A stretch of 64,000 nucleotides of DNA. It comes from Candidatus Gastranaerophilales bacterium. GTDB taxonomy: Bacteria > Cyanobacteriota > Vampirovibrionia > Gastranaerophilales > Gastranaerophilaceae. A program made the position numbers and the translations under genes. Below the pieces are notes generated by a model that saw nothing but the letters and a program-made list of their open reading frames with translations, made no database searches and was not told where the DNA came from. Of the stretch, positions 3,134 to 61,019 are shown one piece after another. The DNA lies in assembly GCA_944325705.1 (NCBI GenBank), contig CALVBB010000010.1, forward strand, positions 1 through 64,000. Direction: 5' to 3'. Each line of letters opens with the position of its first letter. Position 1 is the stretch's first letter.

Positions 3134-4259
3134 TTATTGAAAATCGGCAGAACTATCATAGTTGACATAATTTAGGCTTTCGTCAATTATTGCACTATCA
3201 ATTTGTGTGTGCCAGTTTGCTATTTTTTTATTTGTAATAATAAATGAATAGGCATCCGCTCCGAGTTGATTAGGACCTTTTAATCCGTTTGCGTCTATGA
3301 TTAGTACTCCGCATTGTCTGCTATAACTAGTTGTAGTTTCATACCCGCCTTTCCCGTCAGAAACCCAGTTGCCGTTGCTGTCTGTAACTTTATTTGTAAA
3401 AGTCCTGCCGCAATCAGCTGCTCCGTTAACATAGGGAAGTAGTCCTATTGAAGAACCGTCTGCAAGAATTGCTTTTTGAAAATTTTTCATATTTTGAGTG
3501 GCATTCTTGCCCTGTCCGTCATTTCTTGCTTTTGGGAATTTGTATGTGTCAGCCATACAACCGTATTGACCACCAGGACATTTTTTTATAATTTTCAGGT
3601 AAGAAAAAAATTCATTACCAAGCTCTCTCTGTGTCTTGCTTTGTATGAATATTCCGCTGTAATCGGATGCTCCCATTTCGTACTGCCATTTGTTCATGGC
3701 ATTTAGAAGGGTTGCATAAGTCTTTTTAGTCTGATTTGCAAGGATTTTATTCTTGTAGTTCGCAACCAGTGCGGGCAGCGTCATCGCAGCGACCACGCCT
3801 ATAATCCCGAGGGTTATGAGGACTTCAGCCAGAGTGAAAGCGGCTTTTCGGAAGGGCGCCGAGTGAGCGCAAGCGAACCCAGCCCGTAAGGTGTCTGAAA
3901 ACCAGGCTTTTCCAACATCCCGAATAATCCGGATGACGGCTTTTCGGCGGGTAAAGCGTGAAGGGTGAGGAGTGAAGGGTTCAACAAAACTCTCCGGCAC
4001 AATCGTGCCACCTCCCTTACAAGGGAGATCTTTGTCATTACCCCCTTTGATAAATGTAAATCGTTGCGTCTCACAATAGTTGTGACTGTTCAGAATCACT
4101 TTGTCATTAGCGCCCGCAATGGAAAAAGATTTTAAAAAATCCCCGCGCCATCTAATGTTACTTAAAAATGAATGCCAGAACCCCTTGTTCTGAGCGGATT
4201 TACAGAAGGTTGAGCCCCCCCCCCCCTCTGAGTTTTGAAGCTATAGCTGTGTTTTGCAT
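3134..4259 (-). CDS. prepilin-like protein with a poly-G tract; out of frame as sequenced (candidate phase-variable gene)
   Basis: The C-terminal 240 residues are a type IV prepilin/pseudopilin-like protein: the A|FTLAEVLITLGIIGVVAAM cleavage and helix region near codon 135, then a soluble domain containing CGVLIIDANGLKGPN. A strong RBS (AAGGAGG) precedes the ATG at 4259, which encodes MQNTAIASKLR followed by a 12-G tract (4215-4226). With G12 this start reads four Gly, LNLL and stops. The prepilin frame, however, is open without a stop all the way from the G tract to 3134. The span 3134-4259 is 3n+1 bases, so G11 (or G14) would give one ORF of about 374 codons. The segment between the tract and FTLAEV contains a dispersed repeat. 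Alternatives: a true pseudogene, a homopolymer sequencing error, or initiation at the GTG at 4099. Confidence 0.65.
3950..4060. repeat. dispersed repeat inserted inside the prepilin leader region
   Basis: This stretch contains GAAGGGTT, AACAAAACTCTCC, then two small palindromes, GGCACAATCGTGCC (3996-4009) and CTCCCTTACAAGGGAG (4012-4027). The same order occurs at 40240-40425 (GAAGGGTT, AACAAAACCCTCC, GGTGCTGCGCACC, then CCCCTCAAGGGG). It is therefore a dispersed repeat that here lies within the open prepilin frame, where it would encode an unusual segment between leader and pilin helix. Confidence 0.5.
4215..4226 (-). repeat. 12-G homopolymer in the prepilin leader
   Basis: Twelve consecutive C on the plus strand (G on the coding strand) lie 11 codons after the start of the prepilin gene. 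In an AT-rich genome a 12-base G run is exceptional, and runs like this slip readily during replication. A one-base loss or two-base gain joins the MQN start to the prepilin frame. Confidence 0.8.
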
Positions 4260-4292
4260 AAATTTCCTCCTTTTTTTTATATTTACTATATT

Positions 4293-4401: not shown

Positions 4402-5607
4402 ATGACAGAGAAAATTTCTACAATTATTTTATCCGGTCAGGAAAGGCTTAAAGAAGTTCTTAAACTATATTTGAATGAACGGGATGATTTTGAACTTCAA
4501 GAGGATTGTTCTGATTTGTCCGAAATATACAACACGCTGTCTTCCCTGCCAAAATCCCTGCTTATTATTGATTTAGATGCTTCAACGCAAAAGAAATATT
4601 ATGATTTTATACTAAAGGTTGCAGAAGATTGCCCTAACTGCCGTGTAGCTGCTGTTTATGAAAATCCTACTATTGATGCTCTTGTAAAAATTATGCGCTC
4701 CGGTGCTAAAGAAGTTCTTTCCTCCCCTGTTATAAAGGGTGAGTTTTTTGAGGTTTTGAACAGGATTAAAGAGCAGCTTAACGACGATTATCAAAAAGTC
4801 AACCGCTGCCGTATGGTTACTGTTTTTTCTAACAAAGGCGGTATTGGCAAGACTTCAATTGCAACAAATCTAGCACTTGAACTTGCCAAAACAACAAAAG
4901 AGAATGTTGCGCTTATTGATTTAAACTTCCAGCTTGGTGATATAACAACATTTATGGACTTGAAGCCCTCTTTTAATATTTCATACATGCTTAAAAATCT
5001 GGATAAACTTAATAAAGATTTTTTGTTTAATACTCTTGAAAAATATAAAAATACAAGTTTATATGTTCTGGCTGATCCACCGTATTTTAAACAGGCAGAG
5101 GATATTTCGCCAAAACAGGTGGCAAAGCTTTTTGAAATACTAAAGGAAACATTTTCTTATATTGTTGTAGATACAGATAATACTTTTGACGGAAAAACAA
5201 TAACTGCGCTTGATAATTCTGATATGCTGTTTCTTGTGACTATAGTGAATCTTCCTGCTCTCAGGAACTGTCAGCGCTGTCTTGATTTGTTTGAAAAACT
5301 CGGTTATGAAGATGACAAAATTAAGATTGTCATTAACCGCTATATGGAAAATGATGAGATTAAAGCTGAGGATGTAGAAAAGCTTCTTGCAAAGGAAATT
5401 TACTGGAAAATTCCAAATAACTATTTTTCATTAATGGCAGCAATTAATAAGGGGGTGCCTGTGTCGGAATTAAATCCTGCGTCAAATGTTTCGCAGAGTT
5501 ACAGAGAACTTGCGATACATGTTGCAGATACTATTCACCGTCAGAAATTGATTAAAAAGATTGTATCAAATTCCGTAGAAAATCTGAACAACATACTGAG
5601 AGGCTGA
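4402..5607 (+). CDS. cpaE: CpaE/TadZ-like MinD-family ATPase
   Basis: This is a 401-residue two-domain protein. Residues 1-130 form a receiver-like fold (LLIIDLDAS near 52-61 as the acidic strand) that probably lacks ordinary phosphotransfer. Residues 137-390 are a ParA/MinD-family ATPase with the deviant Walker A KGGIGKT (145-151) and VALIDLNFQLGD as the next strand. In the Tad/Flp pilus family this architecture belongs to CpaE/TadZ, which localises the pilus machine at the membrane and recruits the CpaF ATPase. The ATG at 4402 has AAGGGG upstream and a clear promoter. The stop is two bases before the GTG of the CpaF-like gene, so the two are co-transcribed. No other Tad genes are in the window. 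Confidence 0.8.
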   Translation: MTEKISTIILSGQERLKEVLKLYLNERDDFELQEDCSDLSEIYNTLSSLPKSLLIIDLDASTQKKYYDFILKVAEDCPNCRVAAVYENPTIDALVKIMRSGAKEVLSSPVIKGEFFEVLNRIKEQLNDDYQKVNRCRMVTVFSNKGGIGKTSIATNLALELAKTTKENVALIDLNFQLGDITTFMDLKPSFNISYMLKNLDKLNKDFLFNTLEKYKNTSLYVLADPPYFKQAEDISPKQVAKLFEILKETFSYIVVDTDNTFDGKTITALDNSDMLFLVTIVNLPALRNCQRCLDLFEKLGYEDDKIKIVINRYMENDEIKAEDVEKLLAKEIYWKIPNNYFSLMAAINKGVPVSELNPASNVSQSYRELAIHVADTIHRQKLIKKIVSNSVENLNNILRG

Positions 5608-5609
5608 TT

Positions 5610-6917
5610 GTGGCAATAAAAGACAGATTTAAAAATATACCGCTTCCGGAGATTATTGAGGAAGAAGAACCGAAATCCGCAGAGGAGGAAGAAACTCCGC
5701 AGAATATTTTGCAGGAGGTTTCTAACCGCTCTGTGTTTGAAGATTTAATAGGAGCACTTTCAGCGAAAATTTCTTCAATTCCGGTGTGGTTTGAGTATAC
5801 AAAAGAGGAACAGCAGTCCCTTATTTCAGGATATGTTGATGTAAAGCTGAAAGAACTTAATGTCAAGCTGTCTGATGATGAAAAAAACGGATTTATTCAG
5901 TTTTTTACGGATTCATTTTTTGGATTTGGTGAACTTGATGTACTTCTATTAAGAGAGGATATTTCCTCTGTTTTTCTTAATGGTAACGGTATAGTGGAAA
6001 TCGAAAAGGACGGTAAAATTGAATTATCCGATATAATACTTGACGGAGATCATTTTAATAAGATTAAAGATGTTATGCTGAAACTTTCGGCAGAACGTTC
6101 AGGTATTGTGAATTTAAGGATAAAGAACCTCTTGATTACGCTTCTTCTGCCGCCGGTTTGTACAGAGATGATTATTATAAGAAAACTTGCACAAGGAAAA
6201 GTTGATTTTGAATATCTTGTGTCTGCAGGCATGTTTAATGCCAAAACCGCGGATATACTGAAACTTTGTTTGTCCGAAAGACGCAATATCTTAATAACCG
6301 GCCGTTTAAGCAGCGGAAAATCCTCACTATTATCAGCGATGCTTCAAGGGGTAGGCACTAGAGCTGTATTATTTCAGAAATATCCGCTGATAGAGGTTCC
6401 TTCTCAGCCTGCGCAGGGCTTTTTAACAGCCGGTCTTGATGAAGAAGGTTTTGAAAATCTTGTATCCTCTGCTCTGGTAATGCAGCCCGAATACATATTT
6501 GCGGATTTGAACGCGGTAAAATATACTGATGTAATTATAAATGCAAGGCCTGCGCTGAAAGGTTTTATTTCGTCTGTCAGGGCAGATTCTGTTGTTGCTG
6601 CTGTTTCAAAACTCGCATCATCAATTGTTTTTAGTGAAAAATGTACTGAAAAAGCAGCCAAAGCCGCTATTGCAAGAACTTTTGACTATATTCTGCTTGT
6701 TGAGAACGGAAAACTTGTTTCTATTGTTTCTCTTTCTTTAAATAAGGCTGGTTCTCTTGTGATGGCAGAGGTGCCTCTTTCTTCTGAAGAGCCGGACGTT
6801 GTTCCTTCTGAGGTTGTTCAGACAAAGGCAGAGGCTTCTGCTCCTGAGGTTGTGAAGGAAGCTTCTTCAAAGACGAAGAAGAAGGCTTCAGGTTCGTTCC
6901 GGAGCCGTTATCAGTAA
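5610..6917 (+). CDS. degenerate CpaF/TadA-like secretion ATPase
   Basis: This 435-residue protein has the layout of the CpaF/TadA/VirB11 family: an acidic N-terminal tail, an N-terminal domain (about 40-205), then an ATPase-like domain with a good Walker A, GRLSSGKSS (231-239). The later motifs are eroded. Where CpaF has IIIGEVRG this protein has YIFADLNA (about 296-303). Where CpaF has GSLGTIHAN it has GFISSVRAD. The Walker B glutamate, the arginine and the His-box are thus missing, so it may bind but not efficiently hydrolyse ATP. It starts at a GTG two bases after the cpaE stop. The last 60 residues are Ser/Ala/Lys rich and overlap an antisense gene. It could be a partner of CpaE with a regulatory role; that is inference. 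Confidence 0.65.
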   Translation: MAIKDRFKNIPLPEIIEEEEPKSAEEEETPQNILQEVSNRSVFEDLIGALSAKISSIPVWFEYTKEEQQSLISGYVDVKLKELNVKLSDDEKNGFIQFFTDSFFGFGELDVLLLREDISSVFLNGNGIVEIEKDGKIELSDIILDGDHFNKIKDVMLKLSAERSGIVNLRIKNLLITLLLPPVCTEMIIIRKLAQGKVDFEYLVSAGMFNAKTADILKLCLSERRNILITGRLSSGKSSLLSAMLQGVGTRAVLFQKYPLIEVPSQPAQGFLTAGLDEEGFENLVSSALVMQPEYIFADLNAVKYTDVIINARPALKGFISSVRADSVVAAVSKLASSIVFSEKCTEKAAKAAIARTFDYILLVENGKLVSIVSLSLNKAGSLVMAEVPLSSEEPDVVPSEVVQTKAEASAPEVVKEASSKTKKKASGSFRSRYQ

Positions 6918-35741: not shown

Positions 35742-35757
35742 AAAGAAAGGAGAAATT

Positions 35758-36514
35758 ATGCAAAATGTAATTGTAGAGCGGATTTCGGGGGGGGGGGGCA
35801 CCGAACTTTAAGCCAAATTTCGCTTTTACACTTGCCGAAGTATTGATAACACTGGGAATTATTGGAATTGTCGCAGCAATGACCCTGCCTTTGCTGACAG
35901 CAAAGTATCAGAAAGTAGTGGCAGCAAATCAATTAAAAAGGTTGTATTCAATGCTCTCCAATGCACAATTACGTGCACAAAAAGATTATGGAGATGTTTC
36001 TAATTGGGATTACCCTATAGTTGATGAAAACCTTAATCGAGTAATTAGTAACGACGATTTTTTAAAAAAGTATTATTTACCCTATTTAAAAACTTCTAAA
36101 GTAAATGAAAAGGTTGTTAATTTGTATAAAGTTACAAATTTCAACGGACAGGATGTCGGGTATGATAATAATTTGATATCCAGGGGAAGTTTCTTCAGAT
36201 TATCTGACGGTACCTGCATAACACTTGCCAGTAATAATCAGTACGTTATATTAAGTGCGGATTTGAACTGTGAAAAATTACCCAACAGGTTAGGACGTGA
36301 TGTGTTTGATGTAGGTGTTCTCTATACAGGGAGTCGTCAGTTTGCTAAATTATCAGTCCCATGGATAAGTGATATATATAGTAAAGACACTGTGGACAGG
36401 GATTTTGCTATTGAGAGATGCAAAAATTTCAGTTATATAGTCGGAACTCCGGAATGGTGTTTTACCTTATTTGTTTATGATGGTTGGCAGTTTAAGGAGG
36501 ATTATCCATGGTAA
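35758..36514 (+). CDS. prepilin-like protein with a poly-G tract; out of frame as sequenced (candidate phase-variable gene)
   Basis: AAAGGAG leads into an ATG at 35758 that encodes MQNVIVERIS and then meets a 12-G tract (35787-35798). With G12 the frame ends within five codons after the tract (TEL, stop). The adjacent frame is open from the tract to 36514 and encodes PNFAFTLAEVLITLGIIG, a prepilin leader with the expected Ala before Phe, then a 200-residue soluble pilin-like domain. The span is 3n+1 bases, so G11 (or G14) yields a continuous 251-codon prepilin. The plan is the same as in the gene at 3134-4259: MQN start, about ten codons, G12, prepilin. A TTG start at 35843 would lose the leader peptide. 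Sequencing error or pseudogene cannot be excluded. Confidence 0.7.
35787..35798 (+). repeat. 12-G homopolymer in the prepilin leader
   Basis: Twelve G in the coding strand, ten codons after the start. Equal in length and position to the tract at 4215-4226, and likely hypermutable by strand slippage. Confidence 0.85.
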
Positions 36515-60320: not shown

Positions 60321-61019
60321 ATGAAAAAGAGTTTTGCATTTACGCTTGCGGAAGTATTAATAACACTCGGGATAATCGGGGTAGTTGCAGCAATGACGCT
60401 GCCGGCGCTTGTGCAGAAGAAAACTAACAGCGAGGTTGAGGCAAAATTAAAGAAAATATATTCCGCTATGAATCAGGCAATTCTTCTTTCCGAAATAGAC
60501 AATGGCCCTAAAGAATACTGGCCTCACTCGTGTGGCGAAGATACTGATATTGACTGTGAAACATACTATAACAAGTACTTTCTCAAATATTTGAAAAACG
60601 TTTCTCATAAGGAATTTGAGGCTTACGGCGGGTATAATATTGCAATATATTTTGCTGACGGAACTGTACTTGTTGGAAAATCTGGTTACGATTATTTTTT
60701 CTTTCCAAACGCAAAAAACTTTGATGAAAAGACCTTCGGGCTCATAAATGACAGCGGATACACATCAAGAGAGGGCTCGGGCAGCACATTTTTTGCATTC
60801 CGATTTTCGCCTTCCTCAACGCTTGAAGGTGATAAGTTTCACTATAAAAAAGGATTTGAACCATATAAATGGGAGTTAGAAGAACTCACAAAGGATGCAA
60901 TGACTGAAAGTTCAAATTATTCCTGTTCTGCGGGTCATGTTAACGGTAACTATTGCACAGCATTAATTCAGCTTAACGGCTGGAAAATTCCTGATGATTA
61001 CCCATATAAGGTAAAATAA
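60321..61019 (+). CDS. prepilin-like protein without a poly-G tract
   Basis: The 232-residue protein has a short basic leader, MKKSFA, followed by FTLAEVLITLGIIGVVAAMT, the prepilin peptidase cleavage site and pilin helix. The soluble domain has Cys residues spaced for disulfides (HSCGEDTDIDCETYYNKYF, later SCSAGHVNGNYCTALI) and ends LNGWKIPDDYPYKVK. AAGGAG precedes the ATG by eight bases. It is intact, unlike the two G-tract paralogues, and serves as the reference for what they would encode. Control by the divergent XRE regulator is likely. Confidence 0.88.
   Translation: MKKSFAFTLAEVLITLGIIGVVAAMTLPALVQKKTNSEVEAKLKKIYSAMNQAILLSEIDNGPKEYWPHSCGEDTDIDCETYYNKYFLKYLKNVSHKEFEAYGGYNIAIYFADGTVLVGKSGYDYFFFPNAKNFDEKTFGLINDSGYTSREGSGSTFFAFRFSPSSTLEGDKFHYKKGFEPYKWELEELTKDAMTESSNYSCSAGHVNGNYCTALIQLNGWKIPDDYPYKVK

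Follow-up and report, generated by a model that had tools for sequence, protein, structure and literature searches.

What would a run of twelve G residues be doing near the start of a pilin gene, where it leaves the translation start and the pilin in different reading frames? The question is raised by a minus-strand gene (4259-3134) of the window, that is, of the whole 64,000-nt stretch of DNA analysed here. The window comes from a 1.95-Mb genome (G000) of the Gastranaerophilales, gut bacteria known mostly from metagenomes; for that reason, how members of this group meet hosts and phages is little known. A search of openly licensed papers found none on phase variation in Gastranaerophilales, and poly-G tracts do not appear in the titles or opening abstract lines of the papers it listed on Melainabacteria and pilin and on Gastranaerophilales and type IV pili. 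The answer proposed here, judged probable but by no means secure, is that the poly-G leader is a cassette through which the translation of numerous type IV pilin-like proteins is phase-switched; most of these would be OFF by default.

Anatomy of the split pilin genes

Read along the minus strand, the gene opens with a Shine-Dalgarno (SD) sequence, AAGGAGG (4266..4272), which was read from the sequence and belongs to an SD-ATG-leader block that recurs at other tract loci. The leader (33 nt, 4227..4259; ATG at 4259-4257) encodes MQNTAIASKLR and runs directly into the G12 tract (4215..4226), the proposed slippage site. The unshifted leader frame (MQNTAIASKLRGGGGLNLL*) then ends at a TAA (4200..4202), five codons past the tract and after LNLL. 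Only the pilin frame, +1 from the ATG, is open across the 376-nt spacer (3839..4214); it continues without interruption from the G12 tract into AFTLAEVLITLGIIG and on to the end at 3134. The mature protein (3134..3838) comprises 234 residues and a stop codon, and starts FTLAEVLITLGIIG. Its motif, FTLAEVLITLG, begins at 3838, with predicted cleavage at A|F, and the distance from the ATG to this F is 421 nt, or 3x140+1 (hereafter 3n+1). The sequence and coordinates given in the original prediction are right, and its open frame from the G tract to the pilin is confirmed.

A second copy lies on the plus strand. Its SD (AAAGGAG) and leader (MQNVIVERIS) occupy 35746..35786, with the ATG at 35758; the G12 tract follows (35787..35798), and the unshifted leader frame ends at a TAA (35809..35811). 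The pilin frame (35799..36514) begins with a 26-nt spacer, in which a search for ATG, GTG and TTG found none, and reaches the motif at 35825. The ATG-to-motif span is 67 nt (3x22+1), so that a 3n+1 span holds for both genes, as predicted. The third prepilin gene of the window (plus strand, motif start at 60339..60371) has a short ordinary leader, MKKSFA, and no tract.

The two split genes had been described as alike in start residues, tract length and tract position to a degree unlikely by chance. They do share MQN and a G12 tract; the residues after MQN differ, and the tract position agrees approximately, beginning at nt 34 in the window gene and nt 30 in the second copy. Long G runs are far commoner in the window than chance would give: G8 words occur 10 times versus 0.34 expected from shuffles, all of them from the two G12 tracts (runs of at least eight G are confined to 4226-4215 and 35787-35798). 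The likeness, however, reflects common descent of a shared leader cassette rather than independent origins.

The N-terminus identifies the mature product as type IV pilin-like: it has the prepilin motif, with hydrophobic helix and E5, and matches the N_methyl family (PF07963, E=3e-5) and the prepilin domain TIGR02532, both above cut-off. The AlphaFold model (pLDDT 90) consists of a helix (residues 3-54) followed by a beta-rich domain. A Foldseek search with this model returned no significant PDB match, leaving the globular domain without a PDB fold match; a profile built from 42 relatives matches PilA and geopilin chains of solved structures over the N-terminal helix (E about 2e-4). The genome encodes one prepilin peptidase and two T2SSF platform proteins. 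A short leader before the cleavage site is typical of type IV pilin-like proteins, though this is not absolute. From leader ATG to motif, the window gene has about 140 codons versus about 22 in the 35758 copy, which is within the usual range. A prepilin leader of about 140 residues would be unusual, so the window gene is classed as pilin-like solely because of its mature part.

The 3' part of the window-gene spacer (3839-3960) is a dispersed module, reading RRKA.IRIIRDVGKAWFSDTLRAGFA.AHSAPFRKSA, that lies directly before FTLAEV at other pilins with or without a tract; further G000 examples are at C1:190541, C2:21687 and C8:22191. Adjoining the pilin gene and transcribed divergently from it (4402-6917) are genes for MinD/CpaE-like and TadA/VirB11-like ATPases.

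The tract-led repertoire and its frame states

The search was extended to the rest of G000, to relatives in its genus (G001-G010, including Candidatus Scatousia excrementigallinarum, G002, and a Candidatus Gastranaerophilales bacterium, G007), and to other genera. All sequences are assemblies, and those that can be named are metagenome-assembled; start codons were picked by a script favouring ATG with a nearby SD. In G000, a search with the pilin N-terminus gave 129 matches; within the stretches retrieved around pilins and tracts, 124 show the prepilin motif. Most species of the genus searched have 45-130 pilins, and G005 and G008 only 2. The two genes first noticed are far too few: G000 contains 67 runs of at least nine G, and 31 of these connect to a pilin through an open frame. 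The share of its pilins that sit behind a tract, typically of about eleven G, is between a quarter and a third. The 84 pilins without a tract mostly open with an ordinary SD, ATG and short leader (MKKA|F, for example), which identifies the tract leader as a replacement start.

The proposal that related genomes would share the MQN-type start and poly-G run is borne out. A leader pattern of ATGCARAAY followed by a G run was found in 15 of the 59 genomes searched, from four genera, and the reversed control pattern in G011 only; the poly-G leader recurs throughout the genus, and further genera of the same family have it too. Altogether, 70 fused loci were gathered from 13 genomes, those outside G000 coming from targeted stretches, so that counts there are samples. 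This collection is strong support for a family of pilins that have a poly-G leader in common. No matches to the leader patterns were found in viral contigs. Eight of the 67 tracts in G000 are less than 300 nt away from a contig end, against 0.9 expected; the assembly evidently tends to break at G tracts.

Could the pilins simply be translated from another start? At the fused loci, two of the three frames close a few codons past the tract; the third, that of the pilin, has no stop over a distance of up to 491 nt before the motif. A start downstream of the tract was rejected for most loci: 27 of the 70 have no ATG, GTG or TTG there at all, and in 54 no such codon is preceded by an SD. An upstream start in the pilin frame was rejected too, this frame being closed by TAG or TAA inside the leader (in the window gene by the TAG at 4243-4241 on the minus strand, just ahead of the tract).

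The frame states of the 70 fused loci are markedly uneven: 3n+1 accounts for 53, 3n+2 for 11 and the in-frame state for 6. In G000 itself, 23 of 31 are at 3n+1; as assembled, its putatively switchable pilins are nearly all out of frame, and mostly one G from ON. Were the tracts flipping freely, about one third of loci should be in frame, and 6 of 70 do not fit this expectation. After grouping by leader and spacer similarity, the modal state is 3n+1 in 11 of 15 lineages, 3n+2 in 4, and in frame in none. The tests on these lineages serve as guides only, the loci being related: p=0.002 for the lack of an in-frame-modal lineage; p=0.002 for 11 of 15 at 3n+1 against one third; and a weaker p=0.06 for 3n+1 over 3n+2 (11:4). 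The last figure softened an argument tried at first, that the 23/31 excess in G000 excludes slippage.

The offset persists even where the G run varies. Across four species, leader and tract combine as 33+12, 34+11 and 35+10, each totalling 45 nt, and another set (30+11+4, 30+10+5 and 29+12+4 nt) also totals 45. The 35758 gene and its 98% identical G007 orthologue have G12C versus G11A, equal in total length, and both of the 98-99% orthologue pairs between G000 and G007 share an offset. The visible tract changes are mostly substitutions, not indels. In-frame states are commoner where the same tract does not feed a fused pilin: 8 of 24 attenuator-type (see below) and non-pilin tract loci are in frame, versus 6 of 70 fused pilins (p=0.007, again as a guide). 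The non-pilin genes contribute 4 of 8 and the attenuator-type loci 4 of 16, the latter giving p=0.08 when set alone against the fused pilins. The conserved offset suggests either a poised, default-OFF setting, or slippage or frameshifting at the RNA level that uses 3n+1.

Support for an ON/OFF switch comes from the closest match to the window gene in another species, a G004 locus (L184; 85% amino acid and 82% nucleotide identity). There, a 34-nt leader and G10 tract place the tract end 44 nt from the start of the ATG, and the gene is in frame throughout; the window gene, with 33 nt and G12, reaches 45 nt and is out of frame. Between their mature parts, changes number 85 at third codon positions versus 23 and 22 at the other two, and 71 codon changes are synonymous versus 36 nonsynonymous. 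As judged from these counts, the mature pilin is under purifying selection relative to G004. (The G007 pairs, 97.8% and 99.4% identical, differ by 10 nonsynonymous versus 2 synonymous and 4 versus 0 changes, numbers too small to interpret.) Tract length also varies among sister copies: leader plus tract measures 44, 45, 46 and 49 nt within one lineage, and G11 and G12 occur between the same flanks in another. The switching originally predicted thus has indirect support from the frame difference from G004, the varying tract lengths and the frame differences among non-pilin tract genes (below), but the near-universal 3n+1, preserved through compensating changes, is unlike free flipping.

Tracts also occur in non-pilin genes (L194, L200 and L210 in G000; L064 in G005, L066 in G006, L067 in G011 and L071 in G009), whose families were judged by eye; L064 and L067 resemble sugar-phosphate transferases. 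Likely orthologous pairs differ in frame between species: L064 is out of frame and L067 in frame, and L066 and L071 likewise differ. This is the pattern of classical phase variation. At three further loci (L079 in G005, L222 in G006 and L214 in G002), the tract leader ORF lies near or overlaps the start of the next gene, which for L222 and L214 was judged by eye to be glycosyltransferase-like. Such a layout makes translational coupling possible.

Mechanism and competing explanations

In the proposed switch, the SD-ATG leader would provide the translation start. While the tract is at 3n+1, its assembled state, the ribosome would stop just past it and yield no prepilin; with one G lost, or two gained, the leader would be fused to the pilin frame, and a prepilin would be made that prepilin peptidase could cut at A|FTLAE. 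The most likely reason for the shared offset is that the ON state is mostly disfavoured and slippage mainly deletes, in which case lineages would settle one deletion short of ON. In lineages so settled, substitutions alone would accumulate. A given cell lineage would then express only rare members of the pilin set, and these would change; the frame states suggest surface fibres that would normally be off and rarely switched on. In a two-state model, the ratio of 3n+1 to 3n+2 equals the square root of the ratio of deletion to insertion rates; by this reckoning, the observed 5:1 would need a deletion bias of about 25-fold.

The same offset might instead be the productive state. Under programmed recoding, every locus would deliver a fixed small share of prepilin from 3n+1, either through RNA polymerase slippage, giving one G fewer in some mRNAs, or through a +1 ribosomal shift, and DNA slippage would be incidental. 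The compensating tract changes, which maintain the offset within lineages and across species, fit recoding as well as or better than a default-OFF DNA switch; the predominance of 3n+1 among fused loci and lineages also agrees with it, as do short-spacer matches in the genus, all 10 of which are at 3n+1. The default-OFF DNA switch is favoured because other uses of the tract, at attenuator-type and non-pilin loci, show no 3n+1 preference, and because 3n+2 loci occur in other genera (two in G033, one in G083, and those of G110 and G251). Also against recoding, no conserved stop or hungry codon stands beside the tract, and the glycine tRNAs (CCC, TCC and GCC) look ordinary. A frameshift-suppressor glycine tRNA was considered and rejected, none being seen and the CCC tRNA having a normal 7-nt anticodon loop. 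To our knowledge, bacterial cases of programmed transcriptional slippage use A/T runs, and programmed poly-G recoding at such a scale would be new for bacteria. On balance, recoding appears doubtful. It is also unlikely that 3n+1 is a selected working state, with polymerase or ribosome slippage on the G run supplying dozens of pilins at a low, fixed rate; if it were, every cell would be thinly coated with a mixture of pilins, and the tract would, at other loci, additionally serve an attenuator and DNA-level switching.

Descent offers a further source of a shared offset. A cassette with a fairly stable tract could have been duplicated and homogenised by gene conversion, with many of the copies not acting as switches but serving as silent donors or decaying. 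Two lineages hold 49 of the 70 fused loci, with similar flanks; several tract loci have broken frames; and an excess of tracts at contig ends is what repeats would produce. Separate lineages, however, also avoid the in-frame state, and mature pilins are open and, in more distant pairs, constrained, where stable out-of-frame genes should decay. This founder effect is judged quite improbable; together with gene conversion, it may explain part of the offset pattern. Poorer still is the prospect that the offset results from homopolymer error in sequencing or assembly, such that the genes are ordinary ones whose tracts are really in frame. The agreement in offset among species that were assembled independently, and whose three different tract lengths are offset by changes in the flanking bases, makes this highly improbable, as do the non-pilin tracts that are often in frame, even though homopolymer lengths are error-prone in short-read metagenome assemblies and a 38-G run at one contig end (L071, at the end of G009:C107) is probably a sequencing artefact.

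Attenuator-type loci, known systems and meaning

The leader and tract also occur in a second architecture. At three G000 loci (L113, L119 and L122) and in relatives (L065, L070, L072, L189, L218, L220, L225, L226, L228, L230, L278 and L294), they lie in a short ORF; after it come a hairpin and T run, and then a pilin gene with its own SD and an MKK or MRK start. Of the 16 attenuator-type loci, 15 have the hairpin and T run, versus 5.6% in shuffles. Several of these hairpins are strong (down to -16.9 kcal/mol, z -7), and those of the CCGTG type are weaker (-6 to -9, z -1 to -2.5). The leader crosses the hairpin, or ends a few bases from its end, in one frame, and usually stops early in the others; at several G003 and G012 loci, the longest leader frame ends about 10 nt before the hairpin. 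These loci are candidate phase-variable attenuators. The window genes, which are leader-pilin fusions, lack this layout, and a search for terminators inside fused-locus spacers showed no clear enrichment (16 of 56, versus 17% in shuffles). The two architectures suggest that one cassette may switch translation at some loci and transcription at others.

Contingency genes of Campylobacter, Neisseria and Helicobacter carry poly-G or poly-C tracts for which in-frame states are common. The tract loci described here resemble them in the apparent G-tract switching of surface genes, most closely in the non-pilin genes, and differ in that an in-frame state is very rare among the fused pilins, most of which share one offset.

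A nearer parallel is the sortase-pilus switch of Bifidobacterium breve (bbr_0113 and bbr_1889), in which a G-tract of about 11-12, located within the gene and close to its 5' end, links a leader ORF to a pilin ORF that has no SD start of its own, and a change in tract length joins the two frames; the parent strain is mostly off, and slippage was measured (PMC9187656). Both cases involve a gut commensal and a pilin precursor split between two frames at a 5' G-tract. The B. breve system comprises sortase pili with Sec signals at two loci in UCC2003, whereas type IV prepilins are involved here, at dozens of loci per genome that share a leader cassette and conserve the 3n+1 offset; slippage at these loci is inferred from sequence.

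The attenuator-type loci of G000 and relatives, unlike the window genes, match the logic of pil1 and pil3 in Streptococcus gallolyticus. There, a repeat in the leader peptide sets its length, and a long leader that reaches into the terminator hairpin allows the pilus genes to be transcribed, as shown experimentally for pil1 (PMC3894217). The S. gallolyticus repeats are GCAGA pentamers, with one leader per pilus operon, rather than poly-G at many loci. Programmed transcriptional slippage, as in IS elements and dnaX (PMC1088944, PMC5009743), likewise features a homopolymer of at least nine at a frame change, and a conserved offset, which in the present case is read from DNA. The principle is thus known from Bifidobacterium and S. 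gallolyticus; as far as the literature searches go, the scale, the host group, the type IV prepilins, the multiple uses of one cassette and the conserved offset look new.

G000 has 124 pilin-like genes, and between a quarter and a third of these follow a tract that may be switchable, which points to surface variation on a large scale in a commensal. Moreover, the 3n+1 setting poses a testable choice between default-OFF bet-hedging at the DNA level and low-level expression through RNA slippage.
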